Shown: positions 5,766 to 15,092 of the stretch, one piece after another | How the letters are laid out: every line of letters begins with the position of its first letter | Position numbering within the stretch: position 1 is the stretch's first letter | Assembly: GCA_030692565.1 (NCBI GenBank) | Contig: JAUYAO010000058.1 | Coordinates: 434,001-498,000, forward strand | From: Nitrospira sp. | GTDB taxonomy: Bacteria; Nitrospirota; Nitrospiria; Nitrospirales; Nitrospiraceae | Direction: 5' to 3' | Length of the DNA: 64,000 bases | Notes under the pieces: model-generated | Database searches by the model: none | Told to the model about the DNA's origin: nothing | The model's input: only the letters and a program-made list of their open reading frames with translations | Made by a program: the position numbers and the translations under genes

Positions 5766-6422
5766 CTATTGTTTCCTTTTTGCGAAAAACGCAGCGGCTT
5801 GGGCCCGCCGCGTGACGCGCAGCTTCTGAAAGACATTGGCTAAGTAATTTTTGACCGTCTTATCGCTAAGGTTCAGGGCGGTGGCGATTTCCTTGTTGGT
5901 TTGACCTTCTGCCACGAGGGCCAGGACCCGCTCTTCTTGGGGAGACAACGGCTCGGTTCCCGGTGGGGCGGAGCCCTTGCTGAGGCCTCGCAGCCATGTG
6001 AGGGCCCGTTCTGTGACACTGGGATCGAGGATCGAATGCCCTTCTGCCACGGCATGCACCGCGCGGAGCAGCGCGGAGGAGTCGATTTCTTTCAGCACAT
6101 ATCCGTGCGCGCCAGCCAATACCGCCGCGAGGACTGAATCATCATCGGCGTATGAGGTGAGGAAAATGACGCGAATGTGGGGGTGGGCCGCGAGAATCTC
6201 CCGGCAGGCATCCACGCCGGATCCGTCCGGGAGCCGCACGTCCATCAAAATTACCTCGGGCTTCAGCCGTGCCGCATCCCGAACCGCATCGGCGACGGTC
6301 GAGGATTCCCCGACGACGGTAATGCGGTTCTGGTGGGCGAGGACGGTCTTTAGTCCCACCCGAACGACTTCGTGGTCATCGACGAGCAACAGCCGAATCG
6401 GTTTGGTTTTTAACGTTGTCAT
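5766..6422 (-). CDS. NarL/FixJ-type response regulator
   Basis: 218 residues: an N-terminal receiver (LLLVDDHEVVR, phospho-acceptor Asp in VILMDVRLPDG, Thr in FLTSYAD, Lys in VLKEID) and a C-terminal LuxR-type helix-turn-helix (LSPQEERVLALVAEG, then TNKEIA). The ATG at 6422 sits 47 bases inside the 3' end of the giant kinase gene, so the two are translationally coupled. The kinase has the HisKA_3 dimerisation domain that typically partners NarL-type regulators. I infer a single two-component system. Targets are unknown; nearby genes show no obvious shared operator. Confidence 0.93.
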   Translation of the reverse strand: MTTLKTKPIRLLLVDDHEVVRVGLKTVLAHQNRITVVGESSTVADAVRDAARLKPEVILMDVRLPDGSGVDACREILAAHPHIRVIFLTSYADDDSVLAAVLAGAHGYVLKEIDSSALLRAVHAVAEGHSILDPSVTERALTWLRGLSKGSAPPGTEPLSPQEERVLALVAEGQTNKEIATALNLSDKTVKNYLANVFQKLRVTRRAQAAAFFAKRKQ

Positions 6423-9400
6423 GGCAGGTCTCCTGCGGAAGGTCGATGGTGACTCGAGTGCCGCGGTCCGGGGCGGATTGGATGGTGAAATGCCCGCCCA
6501 TTTTCTTGGCTCGCGCGCGCATGTTGGATAATCCATGTCCCAGGCTGTGCGCATCAGCAGGCTCAAAACCCTCTCCATTGTCGCGGATCGTGAGACGAAT
6601 CGAACGAGCCAAGGGTTTGAGCGAAACCGTCGCCTTGGTCGCATGCCCGTGGCGGAGGCCGTTGCTGATCGCTTCACGGATGATATTCATCATATGCAAC
6701 GCCTGTTCGGTCGAGAGGCGGCACACCGTGGTCTCATCGATGGCGAGGTGACAGCGCATCGGGTGGTTGGCGACGAGCATCTGGATCATGGCGCACAGGG
6801 CGATCGAAAACTTCCCGCTTTGAAGGACATCGGAGTCCAGCCCGGCAATGAAGTTTCGGACCTCGCCCATGACGGTATTCAGTTGGCCGACAGCTTGGTC
6901 AAGAGCCTGGGTGATGGCTTTGGCAGTTTTCTTGCGCTGCTGCTGAAGAGACTTACACGCTTCCAGTCCCAGTCCAATCGCGTAGAGCGACTGTAAGATA
7001 CCGTCATGAAGATCTTGGCTGATTCGCTCTCGTTCCTCAAGAGCTGTCCGCAAATCGTCTTCGCGTTGACGAAGCGTTTCTTCAACGCGTTTGCGTTCGG
7101 TGATGTCGATCACCGCCCCGGTGGCATACAGCGGTTGCCCCGCCTCGTCACGCACGAAACGGCCCCGATCATAGACCCAGCGAATAGCTCCGTCGCTTCG
7201 GATCAGCCGGTGCTCAACTTCATACAGGCCGCTGATGGATGCGCTTTGCCAGGCCGTCTCCATGGCGGGCCGATCATCTGGGTGGAGGAACGTGAACCAC
7301 TCGTCCATCGGTTGCACGGTGGTTTCGGCGGGAAGTCCGAGCAGCCGATTCAATCCCGTATCGCGCGTATCCAATCCGGTATGGAGATCCACCCGCCAGG
7401 TTCCGGCGCCGCTGGCCTCAAGGGCGCGCTGTAACCGGTCCTCGCTCTCGCGCAACGCCTGCTCTGCCTTCTTGCGCTCTCCGATGTCCCGCATAATCGC
7501 GCAGTGATATTCTCGGCCCGTGTACCGGAGGTAGCTGACGGTGATCTCCATGTCCAGGACGCGACCGGTTTTCGACCACTGTTTCGACTCGAGCGCCACG
7601 GATCCTTTCTGCTTCAACTCCTCCCAGTGGGCCGGCCAGAGTTCCGGCGGAAAATGCGGGTCAATATCGTGCATCGTCATGGCCATCAGTTCCTCACGAG
7701 AATACTCCAACATTCGGCAGGCTGCGTCGTTGACGTGAAGGATTCTGGCATCGGGACCAATCCAGAAAAATCCCTCGACGGCATGATCGACGGAGAACTG
7801 GGTGAGCTTCAACGCTTCTTGGATGCGGCGGATTTCGGTCAAGTCTTCGTTCAGGATCACAGCGCCTAACACCGTTCCTGACTCGTCTCTGACCGGGACG
7901 GTCGTATTGCGAATCGTCTTTGTCCCGCCATCGAGACCTTCCAGATCCAAGGTCTCATTGAGCGAGGACTTCCCCGTGGTCAGTGCGTGGCCCAAGGCCC
8001 AGCGATGCGGTTCGTTGACCGGTTCAAGCGTCTCCCACCAGCCGGATGGATTGTCCTGGGTCTGCAACCCGACGTGCTTGATGTTCGACCAGATCTGCTT
8101 GGCCGCCGGATTGGCGAGGAGGGTTTTGCCGGTTCGATCGGTAAACCAGACGCCGATCGGCAACGAATCGAGCACAGTCCGCAGCTGGCGTTCGCTGTGC
8201 CGCAGCATCGCCACTGCCCGCTTGCGTTGAATCATGAGCGCGACGTGGCTGGCGATCGTCTGCGCGATCTGAATCTCTTCCGCCGTAAACTGATGCGGGG
8301 TATCGTAATAGAGCATGAATTTCCCCACTAGTCCCTCAGCGGAGACCAGGGGAATGAACCCCAGCGCCGCAATCCCTTCCCCAACGAAAATCTTGCGGTA
8401 CGGAGCGACAGACGGGTCAGCAACCACATCTTCGACCAGCATCGGTTGAGGATTGACGGTCTCGCGCGACCATGGCGAATGGCCTTCCACGGCCATCTTA
8501 TACTCTTCCGAGAGACCCCGTGACGCCTTGAACCGCATGACGCCGTCCTCGTCGAAGAGGAGAATGGAGGCCCGATCCACCTTAAGCGCCCGCTGTACTC
8601 CATCGATTCCCTGTTCGTAGAGTTCCTCCAGTGAAGAGGCGCGGGACAGGGCGACGGTCATGCGGAAAATCGCCTGCAGCGCCTCGTATTGTCGTGCTTG
8701 CGCGATTTCGGCCTGCTTGCGTTCCGTGATGTCGTGGGCCACATAGATGAGACAGGGCGTAGCCTTCACCTGTATTCGGTCGACGGACACCATGATCGTG
8801 CGAAGCTCGCCGGACTTGGTCCGAAGGAGCCCTTCTTCGTTGTGTAGGGATCGCTGTTGAAGAATTTCCTGGATCACGTGGGCCCGTTCGAGCGGCTCGG
8901 CCCATAACTGCAATTCGGCCGTGGTATGACCGATCAGCTCCTCTCGCGAATACCCGGTCAATTGGACCAACTGGTCGTTCACATCAAGAAACCGTCCCTC
9001 CGCCAGCGTGCTGATCGCAACGGCAGAGGGGGTCCAGTGGAAGATCTGCTCGAAGTGTTTCTGCGATTCGGCTAGTTCCGTGAGCAGCTGTTTCTGCTTG
9101 TCCTCGGCCCGCTTGCGCTCGGTAAGATCCATCACCGAGGCGAGCGTCATCGGTCCGTTGCCGGTCTCGATCCGATTCAATTCGATTTCGACCGGGAACT
9201 CGCCACCGTCTTGACGCATTCCATAGAGATCGCGCCCTCTGATCGGCATCATCGTCTCGGGGGTCTTCTGGTAGGCGGCCCGCAAGCTCGGATGATGCAT
9301 GCGGAAGCGAGGAGGAATCAGGACTTCGATAGGCCGGCCAATGAGTGCTTCTCGTCGATAGCCGAAGAGCCGCTCGATTTGTCGATTGAGCAGGACGATC

Positions 9401-12400
9401 CGGCCCTCACCATCGACCATCACCAACCCATTCGCAGACGACTCCACGACCGTTCGAAGCCGCTCCTCGCTGGCTCGCAGGGCGGCGTCAGTCCGTTTGC
9501 GCTCAGTGATATTCCGAACGAACGCGCAGTGATACTCGTTCTCTCCGTAGGACAAATGGCTGATATGCACCTCGACAGGGACGATCCGGCCGTCTTTGGC
9601 CCGATGCCTCGTCTCAACAGTTGCCGTTCCGCGTTGCTTCGTCTCCGCCCAAAAGGCCGGCCACCTGTCCGCCTGGAAATCGGGATTCAAGTCGTAGACC
9701 GTCATCGCGCACAGCTCGTCTTTCGAATATCCCAACATCTCGCTGGCGGCCTCGTTCACATCCACAATTGTGGCTTGCGGATCAATCCAATAAATCGCAT
9801 CCACCGCGTGATCGATGGTGAATTGTGTGAGCCGTAACTTATGCTCCGCCTGCCTGCGTTCAGTGATGTCGGAGAAGAACCCTTGAATGGCCGGCTTGCC
9901 GTTCCAGGTGATCCGCACGGCTTCGACTTGCACGTGGATGGGGCTGCCGTCCATTTTGAGATACACCCGCTCCGCCCGATGCACGGTGGTCTCGCCGGCC
10001 AAGACGCGGCGGAGGTTCTGTGTGACGTCCTCATGGTAGCCGGGATGAATGAACTCGAAGGGGTCGCGCGCAAGAATGTCGTTCGATTCCGTGGCGCCGA
10101 GAATGGTCATGGCCATGGAGTTGACGTAGACGGCTCGTCCTTCACTAAACACAAAGACGCCGGAGGGGGAGAGTTCGACCAAGGTCCGGTAACGTTCTTC
10201 GCTTTCCCGCAGCGCTTCCTCTGCCCGCTTGCGGTCGGTGATATCGCGGATGAAGGCACTGAACATTGGTCGTCCGCCGAATTGGGTTGCAGCGATGGCG
10301 AATTCGACAGGAAACTCTCGCCCGCTTCGATGGAGGGCGAAGAATTCAAAGCGGCGATGTATAGTTGAGCCATCGCCGCTCTGCAGCATGCGGTCCATAC
10401 CCTGGGTATGGGCTTGGCGGTATCGAGCGGGGATAATGGTTTGTTCTAATGGTAGCCCCAGTACCTCTTTAGCGGAATAGCCGAACATGACCTCCGCTTG
10501 GGGGTTCCAGCCGATGATCTGGCCGCTCTCGTTGATGGACACGACGGCATCCAATGCCGTTTCAAGAATAGAACGGGTCCGCGCCTCGCTTTCCCGAAGA
10601 GCCATGTCAGCCTGCTTGCGGGCAGTAATATCCTGACAGGAGCCAGACATGCGGATGGGGCGGCCCTGCTCGTCCCACTGGGCCTGGCCACGGCCACGGA
10701 CCCAGAGATAGGTGTCGCAGTTTGTCCGCAGGCGATATTCGATATCGTAGGGAGCGTGGCAGCCTTCAATGTGTGCGGCAAGAGCGGCCATGACCGGCGC
10801 TACGTCGTCGGGATGCAATCGGTCTGTCCACTCTCCTACTGTCGTAAAGAGCTCTGATTCGGAGAGCTGTAACCACTGTCGGATGCGGGGCGACCACCAC
10901 AAGGGGACTGCGGGATCGGTCCAGTGATGGTCGGGACCTACTCGGGCATCCCAGAGGGCATCGGTCGAGCCCTCCATCGCCAAGCGTAGCTGTTCTTCGC
11001 TCGTCCAGAGGGCCGCTTCGGCCTGTTTCCGCTCTGTAATGTCGATCGCGATTCCACCGATGAATCCCGGACTCGTTTGCTCGCCTGGGATTTTGTATTT
11101 CTTGACCAGCCAGTGACGAGTCTCGTTTTCGTGGAGCGTAGTTTCGACGGTTTCCAGGGGGTGCTCCTGCATTCTGAGCGTCTGGTCGTGTTGGCTGAAC
11201 ACCGCGGCGATGTCGGGAGGAAACAGCTCCTCATTGGTCTTGAGGTACCAGTCGTTGCGCTTCAAGCCCAGGACTTGCTCAAAGCCCTGGTTTGCAAACA
11301 CGTGGCGTCCGGCGTCATCTTTGATAAACGCTGCGCCAGGCAGATGAGTCATGAATGCCGCAAAGCGCGTTTCGCTCGCGCACAGGGCTTGTTCCATCAA
11401 TTTGCGATCGGTCACATCCGATTCCGAGCCAGTCATACGAATCGGGGTGCCGTTGTCGGCCCAGAGAGCGGCACCTCGATCCAAGATCCACATATAGGAC
11501 CCGTCTTTGCGCTGGACCCGGTACTCTTCGCAAAAGGCTGAGGTCTGTTTGGCTAGATAGTGGTCGATGCTCTGGAGCACGCGGTCCAGATCGTCGGGAT
11601 GGATATGGCTGCGCCACTCGTCGATGTGGTTCCTGACTTCAGAGTCTGCGAAACCGCGCATGGCTTTCCATCGCGCGGAAAAGAAGATCTCCCCAGCCTG
11701 GATATTCCAATCCCAGATGCCGTCGTTGCTGCCTTGTACCGCCAAGTGCCAACGTTCTTCACTCGCCCGGAGGGCTTCTTCCACTTGCTTCCGCTCGGTG
11801 ATGTCGAGGGCGGTGCCAGCCATCGCGGTCGGATGCGCCGTGATGTCACGCTGGACGTCTGCGCGCATGTGAATGACGCGAATGTCCCCGTTCGGCCGGA
11901 CGATTCGGCATTCCAGATCGAGCGGGCATTTCCCGAGCAAGGCGTCGTTGACTGCCGCCAGCACGCGATCGTGATCGTCAGGAAGCAGCGCGGCCAAGAA
12001 CGTGTCATACGTGACGGCGATGGCCCCCGGCTCGTGGCCGAAGATGCGGAATTGCTCTTCCGACCACACGGTGTCTCCCGACTCGATGTCCCATTCCCAG
12101 CTTCCCAAATGGGCCAGCGCCTGGGCCTCCATGAGATGATGTTGTTGACGTTGTAAGGCCTCGGCAGTCTCTTTCTGTGCTGAGACATCTCGGCCGATTC
12201 CGGTGATGCCGATGATTCGGCCATGAAGATCCTTGAGCACGGCTCCGGTCCAATGATAGGGGATGGTCCGCTGGTCTTTGGTTATGAGATGCCCTTCGAG
12301 TTCAGCCTTTCCGTCCGTGAACGCGCGTTGAATCGCGCGCGCCGTCTGTTCTTGCTCGTGAGGGGGGACAAAGGCGAGCGCGGATTTGCCGTGTAATTCC

Positions 12401-13530
12401 TCAGGGCTGTATCCCGTGACCTCTTCGACGCGGTGATTCCATTTCACCATGTTCCCCTGGGTGTCGAGGGTGAACATAAAGTCAGGAACGGTTTCTGTGA
12501 TATTACGGAGATCCGTGAGCGCCTTGAGTCGCTCCTGCTCGACGCGTTGTCTTTCTGTGATGTCGCGAATAAAGCCGCAGGTATAGCCTGTCCCCTCGTA
12601 CTCGAGATAGGTCACCGAGATTTCGATGGGAAATTCCGAGCCGTCTTTGCGGCGGTGCACGGATTCGTAGGTGGCTGCCCCGCCTTGCGTGATCTCATCA
12701 AGCCGCTGTTGAAAATGTTCGGGATCATGGCAAGGCGCAATGTCGGCGATGGTCAGACCAAGGAGCTCTTCCCGCGAATACCCGAGCGACCGGCAGACGG
12801 CGTCATTGGCGTAGATGAATCGTGTGGAGTCGTCGGCCCACAGCACTCCATCGAATGATTGATCCACGGCAACCTGTGTGAAGCGCAACCGACTCTCCGC
12901 CGCCCGCTGTGCTGCTTCAGCCTGCTGTCGCTGCAGTTCGGCTCCTGCTCTCGCAGCGAACAGGGTGAGGACCGACTGGATCCATTCGCTCTTGCGGAGC
13001 GGTTTGGTATCCATGATGGCGAGGATGCCGATCACGGCGCCACTCTTGATGCGTATCGGGACGCCGCAGTAGCTGTCGATTCTCACCCCACCCGGCAGTT
13101 CAAATTTGGGGAAAGTATCTTGCACCTGGCTGTCAAATCGGGCGAAAGACTCTTTCAGCGCAGCCTCGCAGGGTGTCTGGGATAGGGCATATTCAAAGTT
13201 TCTGACAAGGGTCCCTCCCGAGGAGACGGCGATTGTGTGGATCGTGTGAGGGGCGGCCTCGGTGACGATGCCAATGACCGCGTACTGCACCTGCAAGGTT
13301 GAGGTGAGCTGATTCACCAAGGACGCGAAAAACCGCTCGCCGATGTCTGCGGCGGTCCCCTCAACTATCGTGCGGAGCCAGACGGACTGTTCTTGCAGGT
13401 CCTGTAGCTGGCGGTCACGGTTAGTGGTCTGCTCATACAGTGTTCGATCCCGCTCGGCGAGCTCTCGTGCCACGTCGGCGAGTTGCGTCCGCAGCGATTC
13501 CAGTTCAGGCAGTTGTCCGGTCCCACTCAT
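6376..13530 (-). CDS. Giant soluble sensor histidine kinase with 14 PAS and 2 GAF domains
   Basis: 2384 residues, among the longest kinases of its class. Order: short coiled coil (about 1-50), GAF (50-205), eleven PAS domains (about 215-1600), a second GAF (about 1615-1780), three more PAS domains (about 1790-2160), HisKA_3 with phospho-His in SQDLHDGILQS, and HATPase with N-box REAISNGLRHG and G-boxes DNGEGF and GHGLSNM. Most PAS units end in the PAC-type DITERK motif. No membrane segment is visible, so it should sense cytoplasmic signals. AAGGAG lies eight bases before the ATG at 13530. The stop overlaps the NarL-type regulator. Several PAS units are near-duplicates of one another, so assembly collapse or expansion is possible here. 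Confidence 0.93.
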   Translation of the reverse strand: MSGTGQLPELESLRTQLADVARELAERDRTLYEQTTNRDRQLQDLQEQSVWLRTIVEGTAADIGERFFASLVNQLTSTLQVQYAVIGIVTEAAPHTIHTIAVSSGGTLVRNFEYALSQTPCEAALKESFARFDSQVQDTFPKFELPGGVRIDSYCGVPIRIKSGAVIGILAIMDTKPLRKSEWIQSVLTLFAARAGAELQRQQAEAAQRAAESRLRFTQVAVDQSFDGVLWADDSTRFIYANDAVCRSLGYSREELLGLTIADIAPCHDPEHFQQRLDEITQGGAATYESVHRRKDGSEFPIEISVTYLEYEGTGYTCGFIRDITERQRVEQERLKALTDLRNITETVPDFMFTLDTQGNMVKWNHRVEEVTGYSPEELHGKSALAFVPPHEQEQTARAIQRAFTDGKAELEGHLITKDQRTIPYHWTGAVLKDLHGRIIGITGIGRDVSAQKETAEALQRQQHHLMEAQALAHLGSWEWDIESGDTVWSEEQFRIFGHEPGAIAVTYDTFLAALLPDDHDRVLAAVNDALLGKCPLDLECRIVRPNGDIRVIHMRADVQRDITAHPTAMAGTALDITERKQVEEALRASEERWHLAVQGSNDGIWDWNIQAGEIFFSARWKAMRGFADSEVRNHIDEWRSHIHPDDLDRVLQSIDHYLAKQTSAFCEEYRVQRKDGSYMWILDRGAALWADNGTPIRMTGSESDVTDRKLMEQALCASETRFAAFMTHLPGAAFIKDDAGRHVFANQGFEQVLGLKRNDWYLKTNEELFPPDIAAVFSQHDQTLRMQEHPLETVETTLHENETRHWLVKKYKIPGEQTSPGFIGGIAIDITERKQAEAALWTSEEQLRLAMEGSTDALWDARVGPDHHWTDPAVPLWWSPRIRQWLQLSESELFTTVGEWTDRLHPDDVAPVMAALAAHIEGCHAPYDIEYRLRTNCDTYLWVRGRGQAQWDEQGRPIRMSGSCQDITARKQADMALRESEARTRSILETALDAVVSINESGQIIGWNPQAEVMFGYSAKEVLGLPLEQTIIPARYRQAHTQGMDRMLQSGDGSTIHRRFEFFALHRSGREFPVEFAIAATQFGGRPMFSAFIRDITDRKRAEEALRESEERYRTLVELSPSGVFVFSEGRAVYVNSMAMTILGATESNDILARDPFEFIHPGYHEDVTQNLRRVLAGETTVHRAERVYLKMDGSPIHVQVEAVRITWNGKPAIQGFFSDITERRQAEHKLRLTQFTIDHAVDAIYWIDPQATIVDVNEAASEMLGYSKDELCAMTVYDLNPDFQADRWPAFWAETKQRGTATVETRHRAKDGRIVPVEVHISHLSYGENEYHCAFVRNITERKRTDAALRASEERLRTVVESSANGLVMVDGEGRIVLLNRQIERLFGYRREALIGRPIEVLIPPRFRMHHPSLRAAYQKTPETMMPIRGRDLYGMRQDGGEFPVEIELNRIETGNGPMTLASVMDLTERKRAEDKQKQLLTELAESQKHFEQIFHWTPSAVAISTLAEGRFLDVNDQLVQLTGYSREELIGHTTAELQLWAEPLERAHVIQEILQQRSLHNEEGLLRTKSGELRTIMVSVDRIQVKATPCLIYVAHDITERKQAEIAQARQYEALQAIFRMTVALSRASSLEELYEQGIDGVQRALKVDRASILLFDEDGVMRFKASRGLSEEYKMAVEGHSPWSRETVNPQPMLVEDVVADPSVAPYRKIFVGEGIAALGFIPLVSAEGLVGKFMLYYDTPHQFTAEEIQIAQTIASHVALMIQRKRAVAMLRHSERQLRTVLDSLPIGVWFTDRTGKTLLANPAAKQIWSNIKHVGLQTQDNPSGWWETLEPVNEPHRWALGHALTTGKSSLNETLDLEGLDGGTKTIRNTTVPVRDESGTVLGAVILNEDLTEIRRIQEALKLTQFSVDHAVEGFFWIGPDARILHVNDAACRMLEYSREELMAMTMHDIDPHFPPELWPAHWEELKQKGSVALESKQWSKTGRVLDMEITVSYLRYTGREYHCAIMRDIGERKKAEQALRESEDRLQRALEASGAGTWRVDLHTGLDTRDTGLNRLLGLPAETTVQPMDEWFTFLHPDDRPAMETAWQSASISGLYEVEHRLIRSDGAIRWVYDRGRFVRDEAGQPLYATGAVIDITERKRVEETLRQREDDLRTALEERERISQDLHDGILQSLYAIGLGLEACKSLQQQRKKTAKAITQALDQAVGQLNTVMGEVRNFIAGLDSDVLQSGKFSIALCAMIQMLVANHPMRCHLAIDETTVCRLSTEQALHMMNIIREAISNGLRHGHATKATVSLKPLARSIRLTIRDNGEGFEPADAHSLGHGLSNMRARAKKMGGHFTIQSAPDRGTRVTIDLPQETCHDNVKNQTDSAVARR

Positions 13531-13992: not shown

Positions 13993-14076
13993 TGGTGCCG
14001 AAGGCGGGACTTGAACCCGCACGGCTTGCGCCACACGCCCCTCAAACGTGCGTGTCTGCCATTTCACCACTTCGGC
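13993..14076 (-). tRNA. tRNA-Leu, anticodon GAG
   Basis: The 84-base minus-strand product folds as a class II tRNA: acceptor arms GCCGAAG and CTTCGGC, discriminator A, an encoded CCA, D-arm with TGG and GGCA, an anticodon stem CACGT/GCGTG with loop TTGAGGG (anticodon GAG at 14041-14043), a long variable arm (TGGCGCAAGCCG) and T-loop GGTTCAAGTCC. It reads CUC and CUU leucine codons. A 123-bp inverted-repeat element starts only five bases upstream of the mature 5' end; the best promoter lies beyond that element. Confidence 0.97.
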
Positions 14077-14081
14077 TACCG

Positions 14082-14204
14082 GCAGGAGCTTGAAAAACTC
14101 CCGCAACTGCGTTCTCGCATCGCTCAAACCCTCAACGTACCCAGTCGTACGCCTCGGGCTTTCGTTCGCTGCGGCCTTGTTGCAGGAATTTTTGAAGCTC
14201 CTGC
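14082..14204. repeat. REP/MITE-like element with 25-bp imperfect inverted ends
   Basis: The left end starting GCAGGAGCTTGAAAAA and the complement of the right end starting GCAGGAGCTTCAAAAA match at about 21 of 25 positions. The interior contains a second small palindromic region around a GTAC-rich core. It resembles the element at 17408-17525 in layout (GCAGG..., a GAAAAA run, an inner GCGTTCTCG block) and so looks like a dispersed non-coding family. It is inserted between the tRNA-Leu gene and its promoter. No transposase is encoded. Confidence 0.65.
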
Positions 14205-14291
14205 ACCTGGGTCACGAAATAGACCGTCACTCTAGTTTCGTATCTGCGTGGGACGCTTCACGAACGACGTGCGACGGTCCGAGGGAGGCGC

Positions 14292-14321
14292 ATTATAGAA
14301 GTAGGGCAAAATTCTTGTCAA
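14292..14321 (-). promoter_or_regulatory. Sigma-70 promoter for tRNA-Leu(GAG)
   Basis: On the minus strand a perfect TTGACA (14316-14321) is followed after 18 bases by a perfect TATAAT (14292-14297). The predicted start near 14285 is about 209 bases upstream of the mature tRNA, with the 123-bp inverted-repeat element in between. Its -35 box overlaps that of the divergent promoter for the HAD gene. Confidence 0.75.
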
Positions 14322-14343
14322 TAAAGGACACGTCCGGTAGAAT
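14315..14343 (+). promoter_or_regulatory. Sigma-70 promoter for the HAD-queE operon
   Basis: TTGTCA (14315-14320), a 17-base spacer and TAGAAT (14338-14343) lie 60 bases before the HAD gene start. The -35 hexamer shares five bases with the -35 hexamer of the divergent tRNA promoter, so only one polymerase should be able to bind at a time. Confidence 0.6.
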
Positions 14344-14402: not shown

Positions 14403-15092
14403 ATGTCGGTCGCTCCCTCAGTCTCCCAACGCCGTGTGGCCGCATCGATCGCCGCGTTTTTCGACGTCGACAATACGCTGTTGCCTGGCGAAGCCAGTGA
14501 GGTGGGATTTTTTCGCTGGCTCCGGCAGCGTGGTGTGGTCGGTTGGCCGGAGGCGCGTGCCAGCGTGGCCTGGTGGCTCCGGCATCTCCCGGCGCTGTCG
14601 CTGCAGCCACTGCGTGAACGCAAATTGTATCTGGCGGGAAAGCCTGCGCAAGTCATTGAGTCGCTGGGTGAAGAGTTTTGTCGCGAAGCCCTCTGCCCGC
14701 GTGTGTCTCCCGTTGCCATGACGACGATCGAGCGACACCGGAGTGAGGGGCATCTGGTCATTTTGCTGACGGGGTCGCTGGATTTTCTGATGGAGCCCAT
14801 CGCGGATTCGCTCCAAGTCGATCGTTGTGTTGCGAGTCAGCTTGAACAGCTAGAGGGCGTCTATACCGGTCAGGTGGTCCCTCCGCTGCCGTACGGCGAG
14901 GGGAAGCTCACGCATGTGCACCGGCTTGCGCAAGAGCTGGAGTTAGATCTTGAGGCCTGTTTTGCGTACGGCGACAGTCCGGGGGATCAGGCTGTCTTGG
15001 GTGCCGTGGGGCATCCGACGGTGGTGAATCCGATTCGCGGCATGGGCCGTGTGGCCCGCCGTCATGGCTGGCCGGTGGTGTCCTGGCGATGA
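14403..15092 (+). CDS. HAD-superfamily phosphatase, subclass IB (SerB/CicA-like)
   Basis: 229 residues. HAD motif I is visible as FFDVDNTLLPG near residue 20 (nucleophile Asp and acid/base Asp two residues on), motif II as the Thr in LLTGSLDFL near residue 120, and motif IV as GDSPGDQAVL near residue 195. The helical cap insert between motifs I and II fits subclass IB, which includes phosphoserine phosphatase and CicA-type lipid or phosphomonoester phosphatases. The substrate cannot be told from sequence. The stop overlaps the start of queE by four bases (ATGA), so the two are translationally coupled. Confidence 0.85.
   Translation: MSVAPSVSQRRVAASIAAFFDVDNTLLPGEASEVGFFRWLRQRGVVGWPEARASVAWWLRHLPALSLQPLRERKLYLAGKPAQVIESLGEEFCREALCPRVSPVAMTTIERHRSEGHLVILLTGSLDFLMEPIADSLQVDRCVASQLEQLEGVYTGQVVPPLPYGEGKLTHVHRLAQELELDLEACFAYGDSPGDQAVLGAVGHPTVVNPIRGMGRVARRHGWPVVSWR

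Follow-up and report, generated by a model that had tools for sequence, protein, structure and literature searches.

A repeat-derived leader between a conserved promoter and a conserved tRNA-Leu(GAG) gene as a candidate turnover hotspot in Nitrospira

Introduction

The window analysed here, a stretch of 64,000 nucleotides from the Nitrospira genome that we label G000 (G000:C58:434001-498000), carries on its minus strand, in this order, a perfect promoter, a 123-bp inverted-repeat element and a tRNA-Leu(GAG) gene. This arrangement raises two questions: what kind of sequence came to lie between a promoter and its tRNA, and how the tRNA is made with that sequence in place. We approached them by comparing the locus across the genus and with outgroup genera.

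Results

Anatomy of the locus

The tRNA-Leu gene (13993–14076, minus strand; 84 nt, anticodon GAG, CCA encoded) was identified by ARAGORN and by Rfam RF00005 at 50.8 bits; almost every Nitrospira pair compared shows 100% identity over it. Its mature 5′ end, as placed by the sequence and the predicted fold, is separated by a 5-nt spacer, CGGTA (5′→3′; 14077–14081, minus strand), from the element, hereafter E (14082–14204, minus strand), a dispersed, imperfectly palindromic, MITE-like repeat recognized by its inverted repeat and by its copies elsewhere in the genome. The two arms of this copy measure 26 nt each and are 88% complementary: the left terminal inverted repeat (14179–14204, minus strand) would come first in the transcript, and the right one (14082–14107, minus strand) adjoins the tRNA side. 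The other 86 nt of the leader, outside E, include in its first part (14205–14285, minus strand) a remnant of a second repeat family, B, with a predicted hairpin of its own (14221–14280); it was assigned from the fold, from alignment with B-type leaders, from B units in a relative's genome and from a match in the window. The promoter, TTGACA-18-TATAAT (14292–14321, minus strand), is a 12/12 match. The first-pass annotation had described such an element between a tRNA-Leu gene and a perfect promoter, ending five bases before the tRNA, and a 209-base leader; all of its coordinates hold, the 209 nt (14285–14077) with a start assumed 7 nt past the −10 box.

An HAD-family phosphatase gene (14403–15092, plus strand; Pfam PF12710, E = 7e-32), with orthologues across the genus and its best relatives in Nitrospira, is the neighbor that we used for phylogeny. 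Its putative divergent promoter, TTGTCA-17-TAGAAT (14315–14343, plus strand), was found in the promoter scan; its −35 box overlaps the −35 box of the oppositely oriented tRNA promoter, and 66 of the 68 genus genomes keep TAGAAT or TAAAAT at a constant distance. Since the −35 region is common and the −10 box of the HAD gene is kept at a fixed distance, the two promoters may compete for RNA polymerase. Downstream of the tRNA lies a gene for a 2384-aa sensor histidine kinase (6376–13530, minus strand) with many PAS domains as well as GAF, HisKA_3 and HATPase_c.

E is a dispersed repeat family

Blast searches of this genome gave 40 matches with the leader copy and 43 with a consensus, and 47 distinct copies with usable flanks were obtained after combining loci. 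Across the genus, E matches occur in 71 of 79 genomes. Twenty aligned copies measured 123–130 bp, with mean identities of 68–82% to one another, and the leader copy, with a mean of 73%, belongs to the more divergent ones. The ends are conserved, (G)CAGGATGCTC ... GCATCCTG(C), and are often followed by TA; they read GCAGG...CCTGC and then TA(G). At one site (L012), E is present in G000, G030, G033, G025 and G065, and the site is cleanly empty in G026: TA flanks the element on both sides when filled and is single when empty, a TA target duplication seen at this one locus. No TA lies to the left of the copy in the tRNA leader. Since the filled and empty sites point to insertion with TA duplicated, and the length agrees, E fits an ERIC/Correia-type MITE better than a classical REP.

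Some copies carry in the apical loop a further palindrome of ~65 bp (GGTACATACCAAGCTTCGCTTGA...), either a longer variant or a nested element; these are the G063 leader copy (L207), L375 in G065, and L266, L276 and L278 in the window's own genome. A Y1/RAYT transposase was considered as a partner of E and rejected, as no convincing E copy (best E-value 0.49) was found within the ~1.5 kb flanks of the five PF01797 (Y1-transposase) matches. The idea that E inserts at tRNA genes in general was likewise set aside, with only 1 of 47 tRNA genes here having E in its leader; one more, tRNA-Ala CGC, has an E copy farther off, 153 nt upstream, and a promoter-like site separates the two.

Most orthologous E copies differ by only 1–8% between G000 and G030. 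The copy at L008 differs by 31%, and the G000 version looks chimeric; because its flanks are intact at 4% difference, it suggests replacement in place by conversion between E copies. Only 1 of about 15 G000/G030 orthologues was replaced, which speaks for occasional events and against frequent in-place replacement of all E copies.

Leader turnover between a conserved promoter and tRNA

Leaders were gathered from 71 genomes of the genus and from 9 of the outgroup, many of the relatives being draft or metagenome-assembled genomes, and the promoter was readable in 68. In Nitrospira, 33–233 nt follow the −10 box, as compared to 8–13 nt in the outgroup genera, where the promoter nearly abuts the tRNA. 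By type, 36 of the 71 leaders are E (including diverged and deleted forms), 16 are B (including those with a nested insert), 10 are short, 6 belong to a type that we call X and 3 are unclassifiable.

Repeat B makes up the whole leader in other Nitrospira species, and its core, GTCGTTCGTGAAGCG, lies at 14254–14268 in the first part of the window's leader. B units also occur at several further sites away from the tRNA in 320 kb of one B-leader genome. With the B core in place and B itself a repeat found away from the tRNA in a relative, the window's leader is, by sequence comparison, a composite of two repeat families, a B remnant followed by E. Four B leaders (L204, L033, L203 and L196, from G071, G021, G070 and G078) have a third sequence inserted in the B hairpin; the inserts are similar (AGCTGATAGCTGATGGCGTATAGC...) in three of the four, and that of G078 is different.

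On a tree built from the DNA of the adjacent HAD gene in 66 genomes, with E and diverged E merged as one label, the E label needs 12 changes (bootstrap range 11–12), at least 10 of which are forced by well-supported branches, and the four leader types together need 15; the tree rests on one neighbor gene and may itself be affected by recombination. Close pairs give the same picture. G019 and G089 share 98% identity in the HAD gene, 100% in the promoter, 100% in the tRNA and 92% downstream, and their leaders are unrelated; G016, with a short leader, and G024, with an E leader, are 97% identical in the HAD gene. Judged from the tree and these pairs, the leader is a turnover hotspot, refilled or replaced by repeats at least 10 times with the promoter and the tRNA unchanged. 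In L042 (G029), the −10 region of the promoter appears deleted, with TTGAC joined directly to the 3′ end of E, which may be an assembly error.

How the leaders were swapped can be read in more than one way. It is possible, and for this step somewhat unlikely, that the exchange took place by homologous recombination between species, with the identical promoter and tRNA as anchors, and not by transposition or conversion from other copies of the repeat. Identical anchors around different leaders are what such recombination would leave. It would also account for the non-E flanks (CTTTTCCCCTCATAGCTGAC... and TGAGT) common to the E-type leaders of several clades and for the B leader of G067, which carries an E-type 3′ end. 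The in-place replacement at L008 with intact flanks argues instead for conversion. A further point against interspecies recombination comes from the window's clade, where three different E copies (the G000 type, that of G025/G026 and that of G033) share the same CGGTA junction. A broader version, to which we give slightly less than an even chance, covers both routes: the leader would be a genus-wide exchange site at which unrelated repeat-derived cassettes are swapped between the promoter and tRNA anchors, through interspecies recombination or conversion by copies elsewhere in the genome, at a pace far above that of change in the neighboring coding sequence. The repeat hairpins may themselves set off the exchange, for instance if cut as cruciforms.

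Predicted fold of the precursor and tests for selection

The precursor expected from the upstream promoter folds with a z of −5.2 relative to shuffles, into the 10-bp hairpin at 14221–14280, the long E hairpin and then the acceptor, anticodon and T stems of the tRNA. In its minimum free energy (MFE) structure, the E hairpin pairs only with itself and the acceptor stem of the tRNA stays closed; the GGU just 5′ of the tRNA is predicted to pair with ACC at the tRNA 3′ end. B-type leaders (e.g., L219) differ from most E leaders: for 11 of 12 genomes, the MFE structure is predicted to have its acceptor stem opened, which may reflect a limit of the energy model.

In E. coli, leader stem-loops and pairing of the leader with the 3′ RCCA slow RNase P (PMC9433436), so an effect of the leader on tRNA maturation is possible. 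Both features are known RNase P anti-determinants, and the predicted precursor has both, which lends some substance to an otherwise improbable reading of the leader as a selected regulatory or processing device, in which the E hairpin, only 5 nt short of the cleavage site and with GGU paired to the 3′ ACC, would slow RNase P or make maturation need another nuclease and thereby tune the level of the tRNA. Low divergence is the other point in its favor: within the clade of the window, the leader's rate is 0.16 of that at fourfold sites (about six times slower), with ratios of 0.27–0.92 in the other larger groups. Slow evolution was rejected as proof of function, given that L005, an E copy away from tRNA genes, is roughly as slow in the single distant comparison made over its full length (with G095) and that most E orthologues of G000 and G030 differ little. 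The device reading also sits poorly with leaders that change type and sequence repeatedly between close species, and with the diverged-E (Ediv) and X leaders, which have no excess structure (mean z of −0.9 and 0.2).

Structural constraint through compensatory changes was considered as well and rejected. Variable positions make up 12 of 92 paired and 8 of 31 unpaired columns (p = 0.16), and the pair changes in the window's clade comprise 1 double, 12 single and 10 broken. Altogether, the rates, paired columns, pair changes and fold z values gave no convincing sign of selection on leader structure. As L005 is equally slow in that comparison, paired columns are not significantly conserved, pairs are broken nearly as often as kept, and X and diverged-E leaders lack excess structure, we prefer to read the leader as a tolerated hotspot.

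The upstream promoter and the likely transcript

The promoter scan found 2 promoter-like sites, compared with 0.2–0.4 in shuffles. All 68 readable genus genomes have the upstream promoter as a 12/12 match and with an 18-bp spacer, whether E is present or absent. From this promoter to the tRNA, E included, the minus strand holds no other site of ≥9/12, and no intrinsic terminator was found on it. Since only 8–13 nt separate the −10 box from the tRNA in the outgroup genera, this promoter almost certainly drives the tRNA there. A bacterial RNase P RNA was found in the genome (276 bits). Taken together, a promoter conserved with or without E, the lack of an inner promoter or terminator in these scans, the RNase P RNA and the outgroup arrangement make it likely that tRNA-Leu(GAG) is cut by RNase P from a precursor of ~290 nt.

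The first-pass annotation had posed a long structured precursor and a promoter within the element as alternatives, and this evidence favors the former. That the tRNA is now transcribed from a promoter that lies in E or that E created, conceivable in that Correia elements of Neisseria can generate promoters at their ends (PMC2649163), is very improbable, with no minus-strand candidate in E, an intact upstream promoter in every readable E-bearing genome and an element ending 5 nt from the tRNA, such that a −10 box would have to fall within the final ~12 bases of E, CAAGCTCCTGC.

The precursor had also been called unusually long, which is borne out within this genome and against the outgroup genera. 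Among the 47 tRNAs of this genome, tRNA-Leu(GAG) alone has a 12/12 promoter, and most others with a good promoter match have it within about 60 nt. The length is no peculiarity of the strain, since more than 120 nt follow the −10 box in 38 of the 68 readable leaders of the genus.

Discussion

The account that we consider probable is that a long, repeat-made precursor is transcribed from the conserved promoter and processed by RNase P, and that its leader is a tolerated hotspot of replacement. It builds on the anatomy of the locus, the repeat family, the TA duplication at one copy, the conservation of the promoter and the turnover of the leader, all read directly from the genomes compared. Transcription from the 14321–14292 promoter would give tRNA-Leu(GAG) a 5′ leader of ~209 nt, made of the remnant of the short-palindrome repeat B and then of the 123-bp MITE-like E. 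The leader RNA is predicted to form two hairpins, each closed on itself, so that the tRNA can fold unhindered; RNase III may cut the long E stem first, and RNase P would then make the mature 5′ end. Because the segment between promoter and tRNA would be removed from the transcript, it could tolerate almost any sequence, and so become an insertion and replacement hotspot across the genus, where E, B, short and other leaders would take each other's place while the promoter and the tRNA on either side stay fixed. Two observations run counter to this account: the slow leader of the window's clade, relative to fourfold sites, could mean function, and B-type leaders, with their predicted disturbance of the tRNA fold, are a poor fit to a neutral insulator.

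For a specialist, the unexpected point is that one tRNA leader has been replaced repeatedly between an unchanging promoter and an unchanging tRNA. A transcribed and discarded part of a tRNA gene would thus take up mobile repeats again and again, with the promoter and the tRNA left as they were. The series of leaders is a natural test of the tolerance of bacterial RNase P for leader structure, and the locus is a well-sampled site at which to study small palindromic repeats replacing each other in place. We found no account of this Nitrospira repeat in the literature searched, and a Nitrospira repeat family with TA duplication is now described.

Comparison with known repeat families

REPs are 20–40 bp long and carry a GTAG or CGTC tag (PMC3733652). 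E resembles the REP/BIME repeats associated with RAYT (TnpA-REP) in being a dispersed intergenic palindrome of many copies. It differs in its 123–130 bp, in lacking the GTAG/CGTC tag and in having no convincing copy within ~1.5 kb of the five Y1-transposase matches; it is thus neither a tagged 20–40 bp palindrome nor, within those flanks, a repeat found beside a RAYT gene. Of the earlier label "REP/MITE-like", therefore, the MITE part stands, on length and TA duplication, and the REP part does not.

ERIC/IRU elements of enterobacteria are 127-bp intergenic imperfect palindromes with TA at their termini, co-transcribed with their neighbors (PMC2229807). By description, as opposed to sequence, E is alike in its similar length, its imperfect palindrome and TA; ERIC has a terminal inverted repeat of only 7 bp and a different host group.

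Correia/NEMIS elements of Neisseria are non-autonomous, 104–157 bp long, with 24-bp terminal inverted repeats and a TA target, and one of them, situated between mtrCDE and the native promoter of these genes, is transcribed and cut by RNase III (PMC2649163, PMC2229807). E recalls them, again by description and not by sequence, in its small size, long terminal inverted repeats, TA and place between a promoter and genes; it differs in its unrelated genus and in having no promoters at its ends and a tRNA downstream, and RNase III may cut it as well. In being a dispersed, non-coding element within ~100–160 bp, with terminal inverted repeats and, at one locus, a TA duplication, E agrees with Correia/ERIC-type MITEs.
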